Virus record (IMG/VR): IMGVR_UViG_3300027792_000033
Coordinates: 1-44,151 of that record
Reading direction: 5' to 3' (one strand)
Source of the DNA: a virus
DNA length: 44,151 nucleotides
Each line of letters opens with the position of its first letter. The first letter of the stretch is position 1. Made by a program: the position numbers and the translations under genes. Positions 10,116 to 39,754 of the stretch are shown one piece after another. The notes beneath the pieces are model-generated. The model made no database searches. It saw only the letters and a list, made by a program, of their open reading frames with translations, and had not been told where the DNA came from.

Positions 10116-10178
10116 TAGTGTTTAAATCGCTAATGTAAATGTACTCTCCACAGAGGAAAAGTTTATTTTGCCAAACAG

Positions 10179-10424
10179 TTAGTCAACATGCGCTGGTTGC
10201 GTCCATTCGCTACACTTATGATCTGTTACCATTTGGCACGTTCCAGTAAATCCACACTTTGTACACATAAATTTGTCCGCCGCAACTTGCGTACTTGGCA
10301 TGTTGGTGGATGTAAACTTTTCTTCCACCAGTTTGGCGACCTTTTGCGCCGCACTACGCGCTGACTCGTCGCATATACAACAGCCCGCTATTTCTCGTAA
10401 AACCTCATCTTCAAATGTCGCCAT
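10179..10424 (-). CDS. Cassette-borne zinc-ribbon protein
   Basis: An 81-residue protein, the last gene of cassette array A. It has an acidic helical N-terminus with 'ICDESARSAAQKVAKLVEEK' and a zinc-binding end with 'FMCTKCGFTGTC'. The ribosome site TTGGAGG precedes the ATG. The segment 'EEKFTSTNMPS' before the zinc knuckle resembles a stretch of the zinc protein at 38242-38505 in the other array. Function unknown; possibly nucleic-acid binding. Confidence 0.6.
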   Translation of the reverse strand: MATFEDEVLREIAGCCICDESARSAAQKVAKLVEEKFTSTNMPSTQVAADKFMCTKCGFTGTCQMVTDHKCSEWTQPAHVD

Positions 10425-10451
10425 ACAACCTCCAAGGGAAAATTTATTTAC

Positions 10452-10490
10452 ACCAACGCGTCAGGCACTCGCCCGAAGTGTCCACACGCA
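10452..10490 (-). other. attC-like recombination site (array A)
   Basis: CCAACG (10453-10458) marks the conserved 1R edge (GTTGG on the minus strand). The following arms GCGT/ACGC and GGCACT/AGTGTCC fold into an imperfect stem with a short loop. It lies between the cassettes of the 81- and 102-residue proteins, and the stop codon of the latter lies inside it, as is common for integron cassettes. Confidence 0.55.
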
Positions 10491-10769
10491 CGGACCCGAA
10501 TCACTGCACGTAATCCCGTTGTTGCTACCAACTCCCTGCCAGACACAATTAGCTAGTGGTTGGTAGTGTGGACATTTTGGGCTGCCTGTGTTGTTTGTCT
10601 GTAGCGGCAACTCCACCGAAGCGGTTGAGGCGCGTGCCAGTGGTAGCACCTGCTCTTTAAACGCCTCGTACGCCGGACGGTTAGCTCGCAACGCCTCGGT
10701 AAACTCCAAAAACATATGCCTGACCATACGCTCAATATGCACCTCTTTTAAGTCTATTGACGATTCCAA
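10461..10769 (-). CDS. Cassette-borne hypothetical protein
   Basis: A 102-residue protein read from TTG 10769 behind a strong GGAGGAGG ribosome site. The first half is helical and charged ('LKEVHIERMVRHMFLEFTEA'); the second half has scattered cysteines ('SPKCPHYQPLANCVW', 'TCSDSGPCVW') that could bind metal. No family is recognised. Overlapping ORFs in other frames lack ribosome sites. Confidence 0.5.
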   Translation of the reverse strand: MESSIDLKEVHIERMVRHMFLEFTEALRANRPAYEAFKEQVLPLARASTASVELPLQTNNTGSPKCPHYQPLANCVWQGVGSNNGITCSDSGPCVWTLRASA

Positions 10770-10825
10770 AGCTCCTCCTCCTCTAAAGTTTCTTTGCCGC
10801 TATTGCACACAACGGTTCGGCCAAC

Positions 10826-11065
10826 TTATGCTGTGCGGGGAATAAACTTGTGACAATTGACGCCGTGCATGACACACGCAGAATTTCCGCAATTGCAACA
10901 GGAGTGTCTTTCGCATGGCATAATTGGCCTGTTAGGCGTTGAATTTAGAAGACCCTTAATGTCGTCAAATTTGACCCATTCACCAGACTTGTCGGCAACA
11001 ACAACAAGCTCCGATTCGTGAGGATCTCCTTCTGCAAAAATAAAGTATCTTGTCAAATTTGACAT
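10826..11065 (-). CDS. Cassette-borne cysteine-rich protein with SGEWVKF motif
   Basis: A 79-residue protein with GAAGGAG upstream of ATG 11065. It contains 'ADKSGEWVKFDDIKGLL', shared in part with the cassette protein at 12275-12535 ('DESGEWVKFEEAM'), and a Cys/His-rich C-terminus ('CERHSCCNCGNSACVMHGVNC') that probably binds zinc. Function unknown. The shared motif implies a family of small proteins spread as cassettes. Confidence 0.6.
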   Translation of the reverse strand: MSNLTRYFIFAEGDPHESELVVVADKSGEWVKFDDIKGLLNSTPNRPIMPCERHSCCNCGNSACVMHGVNCHKFIPRTA

Positions 11066-11091
11066 ATAATATCGCTCCTTCTAAATTTTGC

Positions 11092-11127
11092 GCCTAACGC
11101 CACGCGCTATTGTGCTGGCTTGCCCGA
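11092..11127 (-). other. attC-like recombination site (array A)
   Basis: GCCTAAC at 11092-11098 is the exact complement of a GTTRRRY core (GTTAGGC). The adjoining GCCACGC and GTGCTGGC arms pair with one unpaired C, the extrahelical base typical of attC. It separates the cassettes of the 79- and 76-residue proteins. Confidence 0.65.
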
Positions 11128-11337
11128 CCCACCGCAACCACCACAAAGCTCGTAACAATTTTTACTTGCGGAATAAAAAGTCTTTTCGCCACGACACGAA
11201 GGGCAAACTGGCATAATAGCGCTGTTGGTTGATGTGTTTTCAACTACCACCAGTTCTGCGGTTTTCGGTTTACCGCAGTAGATACACCACTCCAATTGAG
11301 GATCGAAACTGATATTATGAGTAACACAATGTGCCAT
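11107..11337 (-). CDS. Cassette-borne double zinc-ribbon protein
   Basis: A 76-residue protein with 'CVTHNISFDPQLEWCIYCG' and 'MPVCPSCRGEKTF' plus 'CYELCGGCGGSG', giving several CxxC pairs, the last resembling DnaJ-type zinc motifs. Ribosome site AGGCGG lies in the leader TTTATAGGCGG, which resembles the 5' ends of the ORF-less cassettes nearby. Function unknown. Confidence 0.6.
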   Translation of the reverse strand: MAHCVTHNISFDPQLEWCIYCGKPKTAELVVVENTSTNSAIMPVCPSCRGEKTFYSASKNCYELCGGCGGSGKPAQ

Positions 11338-11377
11338 TTTAAAACCGCCTATAAATTAAAAATTGAAAACATTTCCA

Positions 11378-11502
11378 CCAACGTTTGCTAAATGCATGAA
11401 GTGGCGGCCCCACCCCGACTCGAACAGGGAATAATGGCTTTAGAAAAACCACAGTCTATCCAATTGACGTATGGGGCCGACATTTTATGCTTTAGCTGTT
11501 GG
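11378..11502 (-). other. attC site with a tRNA gene in its loop
   Basis: Outer arms CCAAC (11378-11382) and GTTGG (11498-11502) pair, as do GCTAAATGCAT (11387-11397) and ATGCTTTAGC (11487-11496) with one extrahelical base. These are the 1L/1R and 2L/2R elements of an attC. The terminal loop is about 89 bases long and holds a complete tRNA gene, whereas a usual loop is only a few bases or a simple stem. Confidence 0.75.
11402..11478 (-). tRNA. tRNA-Arg (anticodon TCT)
   Basis: All cloverleaf parts are visible on the minus strand: acceptor GGCCCCA/TGGGGCC, discriminator G and encoded CCA, a D arm with AATTGGATA loop, anticodon stem TGGTT/AGCCA around loop TTTCTAA (anticodon TCT), and T arm CCCTG-TTCGAGT-CGGGG. 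The body is 74 bases plus CCA. It reads AGA codons, which are frequent in this AT-rich genome, so it may boost phage translation. It lies entirely inside the loop of an attC site. Confidence 0.92.
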
Positions 11503-11722
11503 TTGCTGTACATTGGAGCCTCAATAATTTCAGCGGCGTTAGACTGTAACAAAGAATACCATACTGACCCACGGTAACGCGATGAACCTGTCAGCCGGGT
11601 AATATTAACGCATCGTGCAAGGACGAAACGCACCGCTTCCTGAATGGTACTTGACAAAACAACCTTTGTACTACGAAGAACGCCGCCTACACTCATAAAA
11701 GCCCCAATGTATTGCAACCAAC
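11498..11722 (-). other. ORF-less cassette with end-to-end stem (structured element 4)
   Basis: The two ends are complementary: GTTGGTTGC (11498) with GCAACCAAC (11714-11722), ACATTGGAGCCT (11510) with AGCCCCAATGT (11700-11710), and AGCGGCGTT (11532) with AACGCCGCCT (11679). Three other cassettes keep the same layout with different, compensating bases. The interior has further inverted repeats. No credible gene is present: an ORF through it starts at TTG without a proper ribosome site. Confidence 0.6.
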
Positions 11723-11771
11723 GTTCTCGGCAACGTGCGTAGTTTCCAATTATGCACTTGCCGTGTTGGGC
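11718..11771 (-). other. attC site (array A), 54 bases
   Basis: A textbook small attC: GTTGGGC at 11765-11771 (minus strand GCCCAAC, RYYYAAC) and CCAACG at the other edge. Inner arms CGGCAACGTGC (11728-11738) and GCACTTGCCG (11754-11763) pair with a single extrahelical base, around a short loop. Confidence 0.8.
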
Positions 11772-11787
11772 GATGTGCCCGTTTTGT

Positions 11788-11973
11788 TCAATAATGTTCT
11801 GCGGCGCATATTAGTCCGTAACGCTTTGCCACATCTTCTTCAAGTTCGTACACTTCGTCGCCAGTAGCAAGCCCTTCGTTCATGCACCACGGATTAAGGC
11901 CGATTTCGGAGCAAAGCGCGTCAAAATCGTTTGCTCTATTATTCATCTCTCGTATTGTTATGCTAATTTTCAT
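11788..11973 (-). CDS. Cassette-borne small acidic protein
   Basis: A 61-residue protein starting at ATG 11973 with 'MKISITIREMNNRANDFDAL'. It is acidic ('GDEVYELEEDVAKRYGL') and probably helical. The leader TTATAGGCGGCG supplies the ribosome site and resembles the leader of the 76-residue cassette protein. No family recognised. A longer frame reaching to 12075 would run into the attC and is rejected. Confidence 0.55.
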   Translation of the reverse strand: MKISITIREMNNRANDFDALCSEIGLNPWCMNEGLATGDEVYELEEDVAKRYGLICAAEHY

Positions 11974-12015
11974 GTTGCGCCGCCTATAATAAATTGTTTC
12001 AAAAACGGGCATTTC

Positions 12016-12120
12016 GCCCAACGGTTCGGCAAATGGGCGATAGTATGCGGCCAGGTTCACCACAGGCCCGTGCACTGGCTTTCAGTAGAGGCCGCATATT
12101 TCGCCCTTTGCCTGTTGTAA
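12016..12120 (-). other. Long attC site (array A), 105 bases
   Basis: GCCCAAC (12016-12022) and GTTGTAA (12114-12120) form the edges. Arms at 12028-12052 (GGCAAATGGGCGATAGTATG then CGGCC) and 12090-12112 pair over about 22 bases with a few unpaired bases. The loop of 37 bases contains no tRNA. It closes the ORF-less cassette at 12114-12268. Confidence 0.75.
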
Positions 12121-12268
12121 GATGTAAAGTGGTGCTCCATAGTGTAAGCGGCGATGTCCCGTTGTTCTTGGACTTATTACGGGCAAGCACAGCACACCGG
12201 CTCTAAAACCCCCATGCTTAATATTTACGCCGCCTACAACCATAAAACACCACTTTATTTCTTACAAC
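12114..12268 (-). other. ORF-less cassette with end-to-end stem (structured element 1)
   Basis: Ends pair as GTTGTAAG (12114-12121) with CTTACAAC (12261-12268), AAAGTGGTG (12126-12134) with CACCACTTT (12248-12256), and GTAAGCGGCG (12144-12153) with CGCCGCCTAC (12228-12237). Between stems lie semi-conserved loops CTCCATAGTGTA and TACAACCATAAA. This could fold as RNA from the minus strand or as single-stranded DNA. No convincing gene is present. Confidence 0.65.
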
Positions 12269-12297
12269 GTCTTGCTAAACGGCTGATAGTTGCCGCA
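12264..12297 (-). other. attC-like site, partly degenerate (array A)
   Basis: The minus-strand sequence GCCGTTTAGCAAGACGTTGT has the right half of an attC, including the ACGTTGTAAG edge. The left half pairs poorly (GCGGC with GCCG). The stop codon of the 86-residue protein lies inside it. Confidence 0.45.
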
Positions 12298-12535
12298 TTT
12301 CTGAGATACAGTCTAATACGTCGGGAGACTCCCGCATAGCGTATGCCCTTTGTAACCGCTCAACAATTGCGGCAATTTCGGCCTTTAGCTGTTGTAGGCT
12401 GTTTGAGGAGGCTTCCATAGCTTCCTCAAATTTTACCCATTCTCCCGACTCATCAACATAGGCTGGATCACGGTTACAATCTCCACACGAAGAACACCGC
12501 CCCATTTCATAACGGGGCAAATTTGCTATTGACAT
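12275..12535 (-). CDS. Cassette-borne hypothetical protein with SGEWVKF motif
   Basis: An 86-residue protein with 'GRCSSCGDCN' (possible metal site), 'DESGEWVKFEEAM' and a helical C-terminus 'NSLQQLKAEIAAIVERL'. The first motif is shared with the protein at 10826-11065, and the helix with the protein at 12568-12822, so the cassette proteins appear to be recombinations of a few modules. Ribosome site GAGGAGG lies before ATG 12535. Confidence 0.6.
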   Translation of the reverse strand: MSIANLPRYEMGRCSSCGDCNRDPAYVDESGEWVKFEEAMEASSNSLQQLKAEIAAIVERLQRAYAMRESPDVLDCISEMRQLSAV

Positions 12536-12562
12536 AAAAGCCTCCTCAAATTGACTACAACG

Positions 12563-12595
12563 TCCCGCTAAACGGCTGACAGTTGCCGCAATTTA
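12563..12595 (-). other. attC-like site, partly degenerate (array A)
   Basis: Minus strand GCCGTTTAGCGGGACGTTGT repeats the right half seen at 12264-12297. GCTAAA and GGC on the other side give a short pairing stem. The stop codon of the 84-residue protein lies in this site. Confidence 0.45.
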
Positions 12596-12822
12596 GCTAC
12601 TAAATGAGACACTGCTTCACTACGCAAACACCCAGAGTAAACATCGCAAAAGTTATTTACAAGAGCGGCAATTTCAGCCTTTAGCTGTTGGTTGGCCAAA
12701 GGCATACTGTTAAACTTTTCTTCCACAGTGCTGAAATATGCGTGTGCGTTACTCCACGAAGGTTCTTTACACCCAGCATCCATCTGACCCGCCATGTGAG
12801 CCTGACAAATTTCTTCACGCAT
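12568..12822 (-). CDS. Cassette-borne helical hypothetical protein
   Basis: An 84-residue protein, the first cassette gene of array A. The end 'NQQLKAEIAALVNNF' and the final 'KLRQLSAV' match the C-terminus of the neighbouring 86-residue cassette protein, whereas the N-terminal half differs. ATG 12822 is preceded by TTGGAG at a long distance. Function unknown. Confidence 0.55.
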   Translation of the reverse strand: MREEICQAHMAGQMDAGCKEPSWSNAHAYFSTVEEKFNSMPLANQQLKAEIAALVNNFCDVYSGCLRSEAVSHLVAKLRQLSAV

Positions 12823-12859
12823 ATTTTATACAATCTCCAATGAAAAGTTTAATTGCAAC

Positions 12860-12876
12860 CAACTAGATCAATCATG
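12860..12876 (-). repeat. 17-base sequence at the upstream edge of array A (copy 1)
   Basis: CAACTAGATCAATCATG recurs exactly at 39738-39754. In both places it covers the end of the last phage gene and the point where attC cassettes begin. On the minus strand it ends ...CTAGTTG, and the G followed by TT matches the integron crossover position. Confidence 0.75.
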
Positions 12877-38933: not shown

Positions 38934-39073
38934 GCCTAACGATTCGATGCATGTATGCCGTGTGGTGCCCGGCACCTTAGCTGCGATTAGGGCTGTGTCT
39001 ACGCAGACCATCGACACCGGACTAAACCTTGATCCGCCACGGGCACCACATGGCATACTGCATTTGTTGTAAG
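38934..39073 (-). other. Long attC site with 68-base structured loop (array B)
   Basis: GCCTAAC (38934-38940) and GTTGTAA (39066-39072) are the edges. Arms at 38947-38971 (ATGCATGTATGCCGTGTGGT then GCCCG) and 39040-39063 pair over about 22 bases with extrahelical bases. The loop has local inverted repeats such as GTCTACGCAGAC but no canonical T arm, so it is not a normal tRNA. Confidence 0.75.
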
Positions 39074-39228
39074 ATGTAAAGTGAGCTACCAGAATGTAAG
39101 CAGTGACTGAAGTCCGCGGACACGAACCATCCCCACATATTTTTAACGAAGGCAGGGATACTCCTTCCTTTAACGTCCGTATTTTTTCACCGCTATAATC
39201 ATAAATAGCTCACTTTATTTCTTACAAC
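39066..39228 (-). other. ORF-less cassette with end-to-end stem (structured element 2)
   Basis: GTTGTAAG (39066-39073) pairs with CTTACAAC (39221-39228), AAAGTGAGCTA (39078-39088) with TAGCTCACTTT (39206-39216), and GCAGTGA (39100-39106) with TCACCGC (39187-39193, one mismatch). Compared with element 1 the second stem changes from GGTG/CACC to AGCTA/TAGCT, with both strands changed. No gene is seen. Confidence 0.65.
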
Positions 39229-39276
39229 GTTTGCGCAACGTGTGATCGTTTTAATGTCACACTTGCGCTGTTGTGT
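39222..39276 (-). other. attC site (array B), 55 bases
   Basis: A textbook attC: ACAAC and GTTGT outer pairs, inner arms GCGCAACGTGTGA (39233-39245) and TCACACTTGCGC (39257-39268) with one extrahelical base, loop of 11. The best single example in the window. Confidence 0.85.
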
Positions 39277-39430
39277 GATTTAAGAGGTTGCCTCCATAGT
39301 GTACTGTCGGTAGCGGACTTTTACCGCATCTGCCTGTACACAGCCGTGCTGACATAACCGTGTTGCCACAGCCACCGTATTACACCAACCGACATACAAT
39401 CTATAAAAGCAACCTCTTATTTCACACAAC
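39270..39430 (-). other. ORF-less cassette with end-to-end stem (structured element 3)
   Basis: GTTGTGTGA (39270-39278) pairs with TCACACAAC (39422-39430), TAAGAGGTTGC (39281-39291) with GCAACCTCTTA (39409-39419), and TGTCGGT (39305-39311) with ACCGACA (39388-39394). The loop CTCCATAGTGTA is identical to that of element 1 although the stems differ. Only a 24-codon reading frame is present. Confidence 0.65.
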
Positions 39431-39461
39431 GTCTTGCGAAACGTGCGACGTTACGTTCGCC
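39424..39461 (-). other. attC-like site (array B)
   Basis: ACACAACG edge, then GCGAAACGT (39436-39444) pairing with ACGTTCGC (39453-39460) with one extrahelical A. The stop codon of the 85-residue protein lies within it. The outer left arm is weak. Confidence 0.55.
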
Positions 39462-39708
39462 AATGACAATTTTTGTTTGGTCGACAATGATGATTGTTAT
39501 AAGCACAGCAACTTGTAGTTTCACATAATGGCGCACTTTCGCTGTTGTGCGATGCCTGAAAATTTTCCATAGCATCAAGAGCGGCTCTCCATGTATCTTG
39601 AGCCACCATAGATATTACTTTTTCATCAAATTTGCGTTTACCATCATTTGTTTTCAAATAATGATTCCACCAGTCAGTAAAATTATAGAATTGTTTTTTG
39701 CCGCTCAT
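39451..39708 (-). CDS. Cassette-borne hypothetical protein (array B, first cassette)
   Basis: An 85-residue protein starting at ATG 39708 behind GGGGATT. It begins 'MSGKKQFYNFTDWWNHYLKT', has a helical middle ('TWRAALDAMENFQASH') and a Cys/His-rich end ('CETTSCCAYNNHHCRPNKNC') that may bind metal. The longer frame to 39816 runs through the 17-base junction and is not used. Function unknown. Confidence 0.6.
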   Translation of the reverse strand: MSGKKQFYNFTDWWNHYLKTNDGKRKFDEKVISMVAQDTWRAALDAMENFQASHNSESAPLCETTSCCAYNNHHCRPNKNCHWRT

Positions 39709-39737
39709 ATAATCCCCAAAAATTTTCAGGTTTTGCA

Positions 39738-39754
39738 CAACTAGATCAATCATG
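39738..39754 (-). repeat. 17-base sequence at the upstream edge of array B (copy 2)
   Basis: Exact copy of 12860-12876 (CAACTAGATCAATCATG). It overlaps the stop of the 117-residue phage gene and precedes the first attC cassette, just as in array A. Confidence 0.75.

Follow-up and report, generated by a model that had tools for sequence, protein, structure and literature searches.

A predicted tRNA-Arg(TCT) gene within the terminal loop of an attC-like site in a phage cassette array

Introduction

An integron cassette is usually conceived as a gene with a recombination hairpin after it. The locus described here raises the question of whether the hairpin can itself hold a complete gene. The whole stretch of analysed DNA, called the window below, corresponds to a complete IMG/VR virus record (44,151 bases) with genes for terminase, portal, capsid, tail tube and tape measure, and with two arrays of cassettes (Table 1). 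An earlier note on this DNA had claimed that a complete tRNA-Arg(TCT) gene lies in the terminal loop of one attC site, and the ARAGORN call, the Rfam match, the flanking arms and the surrounding cassette array all uphold that claim. The best explanation of the locus as a whole, which we think is probably, though not firmly, correct, is that C5 is a phage cassette in whose attC the tRNA forms the terminal structure, with an integrase supplied in trans.

Table 1. Positions of the tRNA gene, the enclosing attC site and related features in the window
Feature	Position	Strand	Basis or remark
tRNA-Arg(TCT), 77 nt with encoded 3' CCA	11402..11478	minus	ARAGORN, Rfam RF00005; terminal structure of the C5 attC
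attC of cassette C5	11375..11505	minus	Scanner; profile trained without the window; DNA fold z -5.1
R'' of C5 attC	11505-11498	minus	
L'' of C5 attC	11497-11479	minus	
L' of C5 attC	11401-11383	minus	
R' of C5 attC	11382-11375	minus	
Cassette C5, 340 nt	11383..11722	minus	Owner of the tRNA-bearing attC
C5 ORF, 102 aa	11388..11696	minus	ATG at 11696, through the tRNA, TAG in L'; may be fortuitous
C1 attC, protein-coding loop	12562..12686	minus	L'' AGCTAAAG, L' TTTAGC
C2 attC, protein-coding loop	12269..12390	minus	Same L-box type as C1
Array 1, nine cassettes (C1-C9)	10177..12863	minus	
Array 2, three cassettes (D1-D3)	38941..39741	minus	
attI-like 17-mer CATGATTGATCTAGTTG	12860..12876	minus	Head of array 1
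attI-like 17-mer, identical copy	39738..39754	minus	Head of array 2

The tRNA gene

The tRNA-Arg(TCT) gene is the sole tRNA that ARAGORN calls in the window, and a search of a short stretch with the Rfam model RF00005 matches it over the full model (positions 1-71), with a score of 46.4 bits where 29 is the cut-off and an E value of 1.8e-9. Rfam scans of the whole window and of 4-kb stretches, at the gathering threshold and at E<=1, did not call it, presumably because of speed filters. The covariance model score above cut-off and the TCT anticodon place the gene with tRNA-Arg(UCU). Base pairing holds in the acceptor helix of 7 bp, in the anticodon helix of 5 bp, which includes one G-U, and in the T helix of 5 bp. 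Reading of the sequence finds the conserved positions U8, A14, R15-Y48, G18G19, T54T55C56 and A58, as well as A20, C35, U36 and G73, which are identity elements for E. coli arginyl-tRNA synthetase. The D-stem is odd, with a C10-U25 mismatch, also flagged by the covariance model, and G11-C24 in place of the regular Y11-R24 pair. The cloverleaf of the unmodified tRNA lies 6.4 kcal/mol above the RNA minimum. RNase P cleavage or 3' maturation might also be impeded, since C(-1) is able to bond with G73 and the two arms of the attC close a leader-trailer helix around the tRNA. As evidence, the encoded CCA counts for less than one might suppose, because its CA falls on CACTTC, and a CACTTC or AACTTC motif is found in 14 of 96 attCs.

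The codon read by this tRNA had been described as frequent in the phage, which holds within the arginine family, where AGA is the top codon, at 185 of the 421 arginine codons (a rate of 17.6 per 1000 among all codons), and does not hold overall, where AGA lies outside the commonest codons. AGA and AGG together make up 272 of the 421 (65%), and decoding them in phage genes is a plausible use for the tRNA. Processing, charging and activity of the predicted tRNA-Arg are inferred, and its activity is made less certain by the odd D-stem and by an ORF that reads through the gene. Phage-encoded tRNAs likewise match codons common in the phage; unlike this one, they usually lie in backbone clusters (as in G010 and G011) and not inside a recombination site.

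The enclosing attC site and its array

On the minus strand the tRNA is flanked symmetrically, 19 nt from the AAC of R'' CAACCAAC and 19 nt from the GTT of R' GTTGGTGG, and the R boxes enclose inverted L''/L' arms. Pairing joins GCTAAA to TTTAGC and GCAT to ATGC, a single base being bulged. The arms described in the earlier note as pairing on both sides of a 77-base tRNA with encoded CCA are therefore present as claimed, in a site a few bases longer at each end than the span then given (11378-11502). They were also recognised as attC-like by a profile trained on 86 attCs of other phages and metagenome-assembled genomes (MAGs), none from the window, which scored the C5 attC at 58.5, rank 6 of 1597 AAC/GTT candidate pairs; ranks 1-12 are held by the 12 array attCs, the best pair outside the arrays scores 29.2, and shuffles score at most 28.1. 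The training attCs were picked by our own scanner, so that the profile shows family membership and not integrase activity.

The tRNA-bearing attC is a single instance in one metagenomic contig. A chimeric assembly was rejected, as the inner arms are found at the C5 attC alone and are complementary to each other. From about 200 of 44,000 start positions, a gene of 77 nt would fall between attC arms at one or other of the 12 sites, which gives an estimated p of ~0.005 for such a placement by chance.

Copies of the 17-mer directly precede both arrays, overlapping the stop codons of two different genes, and the shared sequence looks like a phage-borne attI-like insertion site. A 16-base attI-like pattern had 41 matches in IMG/VR, none at a clear array, and these were taken as chance.

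Folding of the hairpin

The earlier note had also suggested that the tRNA could fold at the tip of the attC hairpin in single-stranded DNA, and the predicted fold of the plus strand (the gene-antisense or 'bottom' strand) agrees, since it stacks the acceptor on the attC stem in a single hairpin made up successively of R, L and the acceptor stem (-27.3 kcal/mol, z -5.1, equalled by none of 200 shuffles). The other strand reaches a z of -2.5, and the bottom strand is favoured by 6.2 kcal/mol, as expected of an attC; it is the more stable strand in 76 of the 96 attCs, and A-C mismatches of the top strand are replaced in it by G-T pairs. The presence of the tRNA leaves the attC fold intact, because the arm-pairing probability of its site ranks 9th among 55 long attCs.

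One feature departs from the textbook attC. The position of the extrahelical base as an attC-defining rule comes from class 1 and Vibrio sites, and calls for such a base in L'', the top-strand 5' arm. The C5 attC has it in L', as do 67 of the 96 sites (window and L076-L111), and 2 of the 96 have it in L''. With the base in L', integrase strand choice is uncertain and could be reversed.

Long attC loops as gene space

The attCs of this family fall into two length groups, ~38-96 and 107-134 nt, and a few are longer. In 43 of the 55 long sites the cassette ORF crosses the loop and has its stop codon in the 3' arm (L'), against 7.7 expected with shuffled loops, which marks the long loop as coding space in the family; among short sites such an ORF occurs in 10 of 41, with 8.3 expected. 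The tRNA-bearing attC belongs to the long group and has the L-box type of C1 and C2, two sites that share an attC-encoded C-terminus (QQLKAEIAA...RQLSAV) on differing N-termini. A gene in an attC loop, as pictured in the earlier note, is therefore less exceptional than it seemed, since most long loops contain the last (3') part of a protein gene; the new element is a stand-alone whole RNA gene in the loop slot. A broader proposition, that the terminal loops of attCs serve generally as a slot for cargo and that the tRNA is both a gene and the structural tip of the hairpin, under selection as DNA folded for the integrase and as RNA folded for translation, in a self-contained mobile tRNA cassette for phages, is one we regard as doubtful.

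A second tRNA inside an attC was found neither among the 96 attCs, nor in the arrays of ten phage and MAG stretches, nor in ~790 genomes of two phyla (395 each; best ten loci of each checked), and none passed the arm check in three IMG/VR pattern scans (for one of them, among the matches listed). The IMG/VR patterns assume particular arm sequences, and near copies of this record could have escaped the tools, so that the only case found is not necessarily the only case. ARAGORN gave 352 tRNAs across 268 loci; no conserved homologue of the C5 tRNA was found, and no attC with a tRNA in it was described in the literature searched.

Mobility and alternative explanations

A profile search with TIGR02249 found no integron integrase in the window, and cassette mobility would therefore need one in trans. 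With 12 attC-like sites and no such integrase, the record qualifies as a CALIN (at least two attCs, no integron integrase) if these sites are attCs. Two GTDB genomes with the same attC type likewise had no integron integrase over the cut-off. A reading of the locus as an attP, for a phage integrating into a tRNA gene, was set aside as far as tyrosine recombinases are concerned, the integron-integrase family search having given none in the window; that search also matches other tyrosine recombinases, in every control genome.

In the reading we prefer, a phage cassette with a tRNA-tipped attC, the acceptor stem would extend the attC stem, so that the single-stranded tRNA region forms the hairpin tip and leaves the R and L boxes undisturbed. 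Excision or insertion of C5 would take place at R', by an integron integrase that the host or a co-infecting element provides, and the tRNA would move with C5 as ordinary cargo, because the loop lies inside the cassette. Normal tRNA processing of an array transcript could free the tRNA, which would decode AGA and AGG. The supply of integrase in trans, the mobility of C5 and recombination with the tRNA in place are all inferred. The locus would work as an attC-bearing cassette in a phage CALIN does, a tRNA standing where the terminal structure would be, and its site is provisionally grouped with the attCs. If active, C5 would have its tRNA moved by integron recombination, and would offer a direct probe of what an integrase tolerates at the hairpin tip.

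The tRNA might instead be a passenger, captured into a long attC loop, where its one role is that of a terminal structure able to fold, and either in decay or never processed. The irregular D-stem, a cloverleaf that is not the RNA minimum, the leader-trailer helix and the failure to find a conserved homologue would all suit a passenger, as would the strong arm pairing that a folded loop maintains; yet the acceptor, anticodon and T arms are fully paired, positions 11 and 24 still pair, tertiary and arginine identity positions are retained, and the Rfam score is well over its cut-off. We consider this account possible, with the balance of likelihood against it. Another account gives the loop to a protein, the tRNA being overlapping or incidental to the C5 ORF, which stays open through the tRNA with the frame and stop position seen in C1 and C2, as the prevalence of coding long loops might lead one to expect. 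We judge it unlikely: the ORF has no Pfam match, blastn against the other loci found no similar DNA, its openness has a ~14% probability by chance, and a tRNA that scores 46 bits does not arise as a side effect of coding.

Lastly, the repeated sites could be hairpins of another mobile element or of a structured RNA, and not integron attCs. The extrahelical base, on the arm opposite to that in the sites of Tetrasphaera phage TJE1, and the long inverted repeats at cassette ends point in this direction. Against it stand the R''/R' AAC...GTT boxes (including GTTAGGC/GCCTAAC) in an AAC-arm-loop-arm-GTT geometry, the attI-like heads, the small ORFs between sites, the bottom-strand bias and the recovery of the TJE1 sites by the same scanner, and we find this account very improbable. 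What distinguishes C5 on the preferred reading, as a cassette with its tRNA in the attC, is that the hairpin itself holds a complete gene, while most long hairpins of the phage and MAG family hold the end of a protein gene.

Comparison with known systems

CALINs have been described in phages of Tetrasphaera (TJE1), Polaribacter (P12002L) and Pseudoalteromonas (PH101), and five of six phage CALIN attCs tested were recombined by IntI1 (PMC9892861). TJE1 is reported to have three attCs, two of which were tested, both recombining (PMC9892861), and our scanner recovers three sites in this phage. These CALINs resemble the window in being cassette arrays in a phage without an integrase; unlike the window, no tRNA is mentioned in them (PMC9892861), and all three sites of TJE1 are short and carry the extrahelical base in L''.

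Long attCs are known from Treponema, 132 bp in T. succinifaciens and 115 bp in T. brennaborense (PMC3607928). At 115-132 bp and with a long terminal structure they are like the C5 attC in length and general build, and no tRNA was reported in them (PMC3607928). A link to Treponema drawn in the earlier note is not supported, as the relatives reached that have the same type of attC are large phages and MAGs from lakes and sediments. Matches to a pattern for this attC type placed 2 GTDB contigs and 10 IMG/VR stretches in the family; some of the stretches come from phage records of ~200 kb with up to 20 sites. Three records (L093, L098 and L102; 213, 86 and 219 kb) are large phages with ~10-19 attCs in arrays and large tRNA clusters in the same record; in L102 two tRNA-Leu genes lie between parts of the array, none within an attC.

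Cassette ends

The ends of C5 (11722-11701 and 11519-11498) are mutual inverted repeats of 22 nt with 86% agreement. Such complementarity well past the R box is widespread, with 44 of 84 cassettes (C5 and 43 others) pairing at >=17 of 24 positions (another example in the window is 12002-12022 with 11765-11785), and pairing at >=10 of 16 positions occurs in 52% of own ends, versus 0.7% of mixed ends. A conserved AA/CA internal loop follows after ~9 bp, and the complementary ends would give a longer attC hairpin in the excised circle. ORFs that enter the downstream attC favour the usual gene-attC arrangement; homologous cassette bodies are few. Three cassettes, C3 (12023-12268), D2 (39229-39430) and D3 (38941-39228), have no obvious gene and share similar ends and inner inverted repeats, for instance GTAGGCGGCG...CGCCGCTTACAC; it is possible that they are structured RNA cassettes, and partial relatives of D2 and D3 occur in L111, L084 and L093. 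In mRNA, the complementary cassette ends often cover the gene start.
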